Source: an uncultured Pelagibacteraceae bacterium
Lineage (GTDB): Bacteria; Pseudomonadota; Alphaproteobacteria; Pelagibacterales; Pelagibacteraceae
Length of the DNA stretch: 64,000 nt
NCBI GenBank assembly: GCA_902591045.1
Contig: CACIZC010000004.1
Location: forward strand, 1-64,000
Reading direction: 5' to 3'
Position numbers and translations under genes: made by a program. How positions within the stretch are numbered: the first letter of the stretch is position 1; each line of letters begins with the position of its first letter. Under the pieces are notes generated by a model. It was not told the origin of the DNA and did not search any database. It worked only from the letters and a program-made list of their open reading frames with translations. Of the stretch, positions 32,877 through 56,989 are shown piece after piece.

Positions 32877-32920
32877 TTACAATTGACTTTGTTCCTAAAT
32901 TAAAAGAAAATTATCATATA

Positions 32921-33061
32921 ACGGGAGAGACCAATTTTTGGCGCCGAAGGAGCAACTTCCCGGAAACTCTCAGGCAAAAGGACCGTTATCGTAATAACTC
33001 TGGAAAGCAGGCTTTAGCCTCACCGAAGGAGCAAATCTCTCAGGTAACTAGACAGATGGGG
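32921..33061 (+). promoter_or_regulatory. Tandem glycine riboswitch upstream of gcvT
   Basis: Two glycine aptamers lie one after the other. The first (about 32921-32988) has CGGGAGAG, then GGCGCCGAAGGAGCAA and AAACTCTCAGGCAAAAGGA. The second (about 32995-33061) has CTCTGGAAAGC, CACCGAAGGAGCAAA and TCTCTCAGGTAAC. These are the conserved core elements of the glycine riboswitch. It precedes gcvT by 16 bp, so glycine binding should turn on the glycine cleavage operon; in the family this usually raises expression. No separate terminator stem is evident between aptamer 2 and the ATG, so control may act on translation. Confidence 0.95.
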
Positions 33062-55607: not shown

Positions 55608-56753
55608 ATGATTAACTCACTAGGTATAAAAAAGTCGCCAAAAGATACGAAAATAGTTGTAGCCATGTCCGGCGGCGTAGATTCCTCAGTTGTGGCGGGC
55701 CTTATGAAAGAAGATGGCTATAATGTTACAGGAATAACTCTAAAACTATACGATGATGCAAAACCATCATCAACAAGCAGACAATGCTGTGCTGGACAAG
55801 ATATTATTGACGCAAAAAGAGTATCAGAAACATTAGAGATTGAGCATAAAATTTTATATTACCAAAAGAAATTTAAGAAAGAAGTTATAGATTCTTTCAT
55901 TGACAGTTATGTGGCTGGCGAAACTCCTATACCTTGCGTTCAATGTAATCAAACAGTTAAATTTAGAGACTTGTTCAAATTTGCTAAAGAGTTAAAAGCA
56001 GATGCTCTAGTCACCGGACATTATGTTTTAAGACGTGAACATAATGGAGAAGGAACTATGTATCGTGCAGAAGATAAAAGTCGTGATCAAAGTTATTTTT
56101 TATTCAGTACTACACAAAAACAACTTGATTATTTAAGATTTCCACTTGGTTCTATAAATAAATCTGAAACAAGAAAAATTGCTAACAAACTAAAACTTAA
56201 CGTGGCAGAAAAACCTGATAGCCAGGACATTTGTTTTGTACCAAATGGTGACTATGCTTCTGTAATAGAAAAGTATAGGCCACAGTCTTTTAAAAAAGGA
56301 CATATTTTTGATTTGAACGGGAAAAAGCTAGGTTCTCATGATGGAATTATAAATTATACCATTGGTCAAAGAAAAGGCATTAAGATTTCCAGTCAAGAAC
56401 CACTTTATGTAATTGATATAAGAAACAAAGATAACTCTATTATCGTAGGTCCACAGGATTGTTTAAATATAACAAAGCTGTATCTAAGGAACATCAATCT
56501 TTTATCTGATATCAAAAACTTTGAAAAAGATATTTATATTAAAGTTAGGTCTACTGGCAAACTACTTAAATCAAAAGTAGAAATTAATAATGATTCAGCG
56601 ACTGTTGAAATCTTACAGGATGAGAAAGGAGTTTCGCCAGGTCAGGCTTGCGTGTTTTATTCTAAAGATAACCTTGGTGAAAGAGTTTTAGGCGGAGGTT
56701 GGATCAACAAAACTATAAACAAAAATTTATCCACACAACTAACAAACCGATAA
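55608..56753 (+). CDS. mnmA: tRNA-specific 2-thiouridylase MnmA
   Basis: A 381-residue enzyme that adds sulfur to U34 of tRNA-Lys, -Glu and -Gln. The ATP motif [20 protein letters not shown] is at 19-38, the first catalytic Cys lies in [10 protein letters not shown], the second in [10 protein letters not shown], and GQRKGI and [11 protein letters not shown] are C-terminal features. A TATAAT at 55590-55595 ends 12 bp before the ATG, which would make the mRNA nearly leaderless if used. The gene is followed by a structured noncoding region rather than another gene on this strand. Confidence 0.96.
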
Positions 56754-56811
56754 AAAAATCAACCAAAAAGTGATGGTGATTTCTGATTAAAATGATTAAA
56801 TAGAAATTGAA

Positions 56812-56989
56812 TTAAGAGGCAACTCTTAACTGGCCAGTTAAGGAAAGACCGAGAGGTTTAAGCTTGACGGGCAGAAAGTCCTACAGAGTAGCACTAAAAT
56901 AGTAGGACGGGAGGCTTGGCGGTAGTGCTGAAACGACGGGCCAAAACTTAAGTCTGCGCACCGAAAGGTGTGTAGACTAGGGTTTTTTT
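56812..56989 (+). ncRNA. Unassigned structured RNA with pseudoknot and own terminator
   Basis: The 236 bp between mnmA and the convergent membrane-protein gene have no coding frame but dense pairing. Seen: TTAAGAG/CTCTTAA closed by GCAA (56812-56829); AGACC/GGTTT closed by GAGA (56846-56859); AAGCTT (56860-56865) with AGGCTT (56912-56917), enclosing GTCCTAC (56878-56884)/GTAGGAC (56902-56908), whose loop AGCACTA (56890-56896) is complementary to TAGTGCT (56923-56929), a 7-bp pseudoknot. CTTAA and GGCC (56825-56835) can pair with GGCC and TTAAG (56939-56952), closing the molecule, as an alternative to the first hairpin. GACGGG occurs three times. A strong terminator ends it. GAAAGTCC recalls RNase P region I, but regions IV/V are absent; no tmRNA tag or SRP motif is present. 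It is therefore an RNA of unknown family, or a diverged known one. Confidence 0.65.
56951..56989 (+). terminator. Intrinsic terminator of the structured RNA
   Basis: AGTCTGCGCACC (56951-56962) pairs with GGTGTGTAGACT (56967-56978), 12 continuous pairs including two G-U, around a GAAA tetraloop. After AGGG comes a run of seven T (56983-56989). It is among the strongest terminators in the window and shows that transcription of the RNA region runs on the plus strand and stops before the convergent gene. Confidence 0.92.

Follow-up and report, generated by a model that had tools for sequence, protein, structure and literature searches.

An IMES-2 RNA gene of Pelagibacteraceae with a conserved promoter-like module upstream and a terminator of its own

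The stretch of 64,000 nt analysed here (the window) holds a noncoding gap between two convergent genes, bounded by the end of mnmA at 56753 and a minus-strand open reading frame (ORF) from 56990. The initial annotation, which had recognised this gap, proposed that it carries a structured RNA of unknown family and perhaps an undescribed system. Which RNA is this, and does it serve one of its neighbours or itself? Analysis of the whole window with cmscan against Rfam 15 gave two matches above the gathering score, a glycine riboswitch and IMES-2 (RF02035), the latter on the plus strand within the gap. The IMES-2 match scored 148.5 bits (E 1e-38), nearly three times the gathering score of 54.7, and spanned the entire model without truncation. 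It places the beginning of the RNA near 56805 instead of at 56812 as first annotated. The four consensus hairpins of the family are supported by covariation, and its marine bacterial range holds, with Pelagibacteraceae as the only hosts within the searches made. The RNA in the window is thus virtually certain to be IMES-2. The annotation had suggested an Rfam search and had named a clear match to a known class as evidence against its own reading; a full-length match of this kind was found, and since the family is already catalogued in Rfam the claim of discovery falls.

The name IMES is short for 'identified in marine environmental sequences'. A 2009 study of marine metagenomes by the Breaker laboratory reportedly described the IMES-2 family, and the RNA is said in that original description to be transcribed and abundant. 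Matches to IMES-2 have also been noted in the giant squid genome assembly, where the authors judged them to be probable environmental contamination (PMC6962438), a call that is consistent with a SAR11 origin. The glycine riboswitch aptamer of the window (RF00504, 68.3 bits) lies on the plus strand at 32912-32995, and an AdoCbl-II riboswitch aptamer (RF01689, 71.9 bits) was seen at positions 3-95 of locus L081 in genome G001.

The positions of the RNA, its hairpins and the elements around it are collected in Table 1.

Table 1. Features of the IMES-2 locus (window coordinates)
Feature	Position	Strand	Basis
Tandem DnaA-box-like boxes, TTATCCACA (56727-56735) and CTAACA (56739-56744)	56727-56744	+	Upstream alignment, four contexts
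Conserved CAAC...AAAGTGAT element, with AGTGAT at the -35 position	56760-56775	+	Upstream alignments
-10-like element AATGAT (TATGAT in most relatives)	56791-56801	+	Upstream alignments
IMES-2 RNA core	56805-56944	+	RF02035 model positions 1-141
Hairpin 1, 7 bp, TTAAGAG-GCAA-CTCTTAA, GNRA loop GCAA	56812-56829	+	100% of cells paired; 4/7 pairs covary
Hairpin 2, 4x4 internal loop, GAGA tip	56830-56874	+	Outer stem: 9/11 pairs covary, 95.6% of cells paired
Hairpin 2, inner stem GACC-GAGA-GGTT	56847-56858	+	Sequence
Hairpin 3, stem GTCCTAC/GTAGGAC, loop AGCACTA (56890-56896)	56878-56908	+	6/6 main pairs covary
Hairpin 4, loop TAGTGCT (56923-56929)	56913-56942	+	5/9 stem pairs covary
3' hairpin and intrinsic terminator; hairpin AGTCTGCGCACC-GAAA-GGTGTGTAGACT at 56951-56978, then T run	56944-56989	+	Beyond the Rfam model; in every homologue examined, sequence differing

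The 187 nt from 56805 to 56991 fold with a predicted energy of -72.4 kcal/mol, against -47.2 +/- 3.9 for shuffled sequences (z -6.5; 0 of 200 shuffles as good). Pairing was further analysed by aligning 23 homologues, drawn from six genera, and scoring them on the consensus structure with the loop-loop helix added. Paired cells made up 92.9% (79.0% in shuffles), both sides had changed in 30 of 45 pairs (16.5 in shuffles), and cells with changes on both sides numbered 160, compared with 41.6 in shuffles and 15-28 when the partner strand was slid. None of 500 shuffles attained any of the covariation measures, but as the aligned sequences are related these shuffle figures are not probabilities, and the slid-partner controls weigh more.

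The loop of hairpin 3 is complementary to the loop of hairpin 4, giving a kissing helix in which 83.9% of the cells are paired and both sides have changed in three of seven pairs. It covaries: the window has GCAC/GUGC where most genomes have GCGC/GCGC, and loci L046 and L051 have GUGC/GCAC and GUAC/GUAC, respectively. Compensatory changes across the alignment show that the fold, including the contact between loops 3 and 4, is maintained, and hardly any conserved unpaired stretch longer than ~4 nt is left.

The initial annotation had called for such a covariation check in relatives, and its central proposal of a functional structured RNA with a pseudoknot and a terminator of its own gains support from the covariation and conservation seen. 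The three GNRA hairpins lie where it had placed them, with GCAA in hairpin 1, GAGA in hairpin 2 and GAAA in the terminator. It was also right that the loop of a 7-bp stem is complementary to a downstream strand, although that strand proves to be the loop of hairpin 4, so the contact is a loop-loop kissing pair. Of the three GACGGG copies, all could be located (at 56866, 56906 and 56935) but they are not kept in relatives, and nor is the possible long-range closing helix.

Where does the gene stand in other genomes? Clustering of the flanking ORFs gave at least four unrelated neighbourhoods; genus labels (g1 etc.) are anonymous numbers, and the neighbouring genes are named from their translations, not from family searches. 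In g1, g6 and g9, mnmA lies upstream and a convergent membrane protein gene downstream, while in g3 the RNA is preceded by either a tyrosine recombinase gene or a small membrane ORF and followed by an MGMT-like gene. A nuclease (SNase) gene upstream and a convergent SRAP-domain gene downstream flank the g2 copies, and in g8 the neighbour is a divergent SelO gene. A 3' hairpin with a T run follows every homologue inspected, confirming the strong terminator noted earlier; it is weaker in g6, and its hairpin sequence is wholly replaced between clades.

At the g3 loci (L228, L002, L010 and others) the IMES-2 terminator is followed at once by the start of the MGMT-like gene, which lies on the same strand. 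Almost no space is left there for a promoter of its own, and in genomes without IMES-2 the MGMT-like gene directly follows or overlaps the gene upstream. Many g3 genomes (L002-L031) have a tyrosine recombinase gene upstream of IMES-2, at a distance of a few hundred bases; it persists in G003, which is without the RNA. Comparison of L236 with L228 showed that only a few bases separate the small upstream ORF from the MGMT-like gene in G003, where the whole unit of promoter, RNA and terminator is absent. As the RNA travels with its promoter module and terminator, IMES-2 appears to be an independent gene, and very likely one that acts in trans.

The upstream module has the same order in genomes with unrelated neighbours: tandem boxes, then CAAC...AAGTGAT, and ~17 bases further on TATGAT/GATA. 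The boxes are kept as TTATCC[AC]CA-nnn-TTCACA in the other contexts, and the second is degenerate in the window. Relative to the RNA core, most genomes of the mnmA context, of g2 and of g8 have them near -76, and those of g3 and g9 near -86, a difference of about one helical turn. In most of the IMES-2 genomes tested, the genome-wide best site for the tandem pattern (fewest mismatches) is the one upstream of IMES-2. Since chance would already give 0.72 matches to TTATCCACA in 64 kb, the argument for the module rests on its conservation. The -35-like AGTGAT differs greatly from the sigma-70 consensus, and no promoter was found on the IMES-2 strand by a generic scan. No other gene with the same promoter and box module was convincing when searched for, and RNase P promoters do not share it. 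Judged from the sequence, transcription would start at ~56803-56806.

The genome of the window has a single IMES-2 copy. Across the order, the RNA was found in 200 of 397 genomes, always as one copy, including 75 of 151 near-complete genomes, and it occurs in six genera. Only three genomes, all of Pelagibacteraceae, matched among 385 searched class-wide, and in an exact-pattern scan of named genomes nearly all of the matches listed were from Pelagibacteraceae. Pattern matches in SAR116, Smithellaceae, Negativicutes and cyanobacteria were not IMES-2. A viral origin was considered and set aside: the pattern scan of viral contigs gave five chance matches, none of them IMES-2 by Rfam or by our own model, and phage records gave no IMES-2 match.

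Many complete genomes are without IMES-2 even under relaxed filters. A model broadened to cover the g2 and g8 forms as well (R1) found no hidden divergent copy in such genomes, and there was none at their syntenic locus. As the RNA is present in six genera, its patchy presence is more simply read as loss. The initial annotation had argued that keeping this DNA implies function; this holds for lineages that keep IMES-2, but the RNA can be dispensed with, as about half of the genomes of the order have none.

Could the RNA instead regulate an adjacent gene? Riboswitches commonly have GNRA loops and kissing pairs, and the g3 terminator stands directly before the MGMT-like start codon on the same strand, which would suit a riboswitch-like cis-regulatory element or attenuator. 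Such an element is nevertheless improbable: the next gene is convergent or unrelated in the window, in g2 and in the other genomes with the mnmA context, each context has a different downstream gene while RNA, promoter module and terminator stay joined, and MGMT persists without IMES-2. No single gene class was found to carry the RNA consistently in its 5' leader across the at least four contexts, in two of which the downstream gene is convergent. A cis effect on the MGMT-like gene may occur in g3, because that gene starts right after the terminator on the same strand. That the RNA is only a terminator or 3' UTR structure of mnmA, which ends ~50 bases before it on the same strand, is scarcely credible, as homologues occur in contexts without mnmA, a terminator has no need of a covarying four-hairpin kissing fold, and a promoter-like module lies upstream of the RNA. 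IMES-2 is thus neither riboswitch nor 3' UTR but a dispensable gene, probably trans-acting.

Among trans-acting RNAs, a degenerate or variant form of a housekeeping RNA (RNase P, 6S, SRP or tmRNA) is very improbable. The letters of GAAAGTCC are as in RNase P, and the initial annotation had likened them to its conserved region I, but they are a conserved GAAA joined to a stem strand, GTCC, which varies among relatives as one side of a covarying stem. RF00010 gave no match at the IMES-2 locus, and the canonical RNase P RNA gene lies elsewhere in the same genome (G000:C5:62009-62358, 287.9 bits). The absence of 6S matches to RF00013 from 21 genomes of the order, by a search that detects 6S in Caulobacter and E. 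coli, would leave room for a 6S variant, but RF00013 did not match at the locus either, and an array of hairpins is unlike the long bubble-bearing rod of 6S. With no ARAGORN or Rfam match at the locus, the earlier statement that the RNA is not tRNA, SRP RNA or tmRNA stands. Absence of IMES-2 from many near-complete genomes, also with the broadened model, also argues against a housekeeping RNA variant. An antisense-type sRNA whose exposed loops pair with mRNAs would fit a small, dispensable transcript that appears to stand alone with its own promoter and terminator; we consider it unlikely, since both large loops are taken up by the covarying kissing pair and few conserved unpaired stretches exceed ~4 nt.

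The locus is therefore probably best explained overall as an IMES-2 RNA gene of Pelagibacteraceae (SAR11) with its own promoter and terminator, acting in trans. The RNA would be transcribed alone from ~56803 to ~56989 (~185 nt), from a sigma-70-type promoter that may be helped by a protein on the tandem upstream boxes. It would then act in trans as a compact, rigid and probably protein-bound RNA. Since covarying helices take up almost the whole molecule, we prefer a compact trans-acting RNA to neighbour regulation or simple antisense pairing, with a slight leaning towards a structured RNA that works bound to protein over an antisense regulator.

Coupling of IMES-2 expression to chromosome replication, through DnaA or another regulator on the TTATCCACA/TTCACA boxes, is a rather doubtful proposal; if true, IMES-2 would be a cell-cycle-linked RNA in streamlined ocean bacteria. 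The usual alphaproteobacterial replication origin is the region upstream of hemE, which is the likely origin here too. Single DnaA-like boxes are found in the hemE-upstream regions, and the tandem form is found weakly (2-3 mismatches) in 3 of 14, for which reason the DnaA reading of the boxes is not claimed but kept as a lead. What the analysis offers for the family is the assignment to Pelagibacteraceae hosts with a clean plus/minus distribution within one family, together with the kissing helix, the terminator and the conserved promoter module, for which there is a candidate regulator. The RNA has hardly been studied, and it comes from bacteria that rank among the most abundant in the sea; its function thereby becomes experimentally approachable.

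Compared with known systems, the RNA has no more than the letters of GAAAGTCC in common with class A RNase P RNA (RF00010), which has a separate canonical gene in the genome and from which the variable GTCC sets it apart. With 6S RNA (RF00013) it shares the form of a stand-alone RNA of ~180 nt with its own terminator, but it consists of short hairpins in a row, two of them joined by a kissing pair, and has no long rod with a central bubble. It agrees with IMES-2 (RF02035) over the full length in sequence and structure, with the same helices and no difference in the core; the displayed Rfam consensus includes neither the kissing helix nor the terminator hairpin at the 3' end, nor the promoter module upstream.
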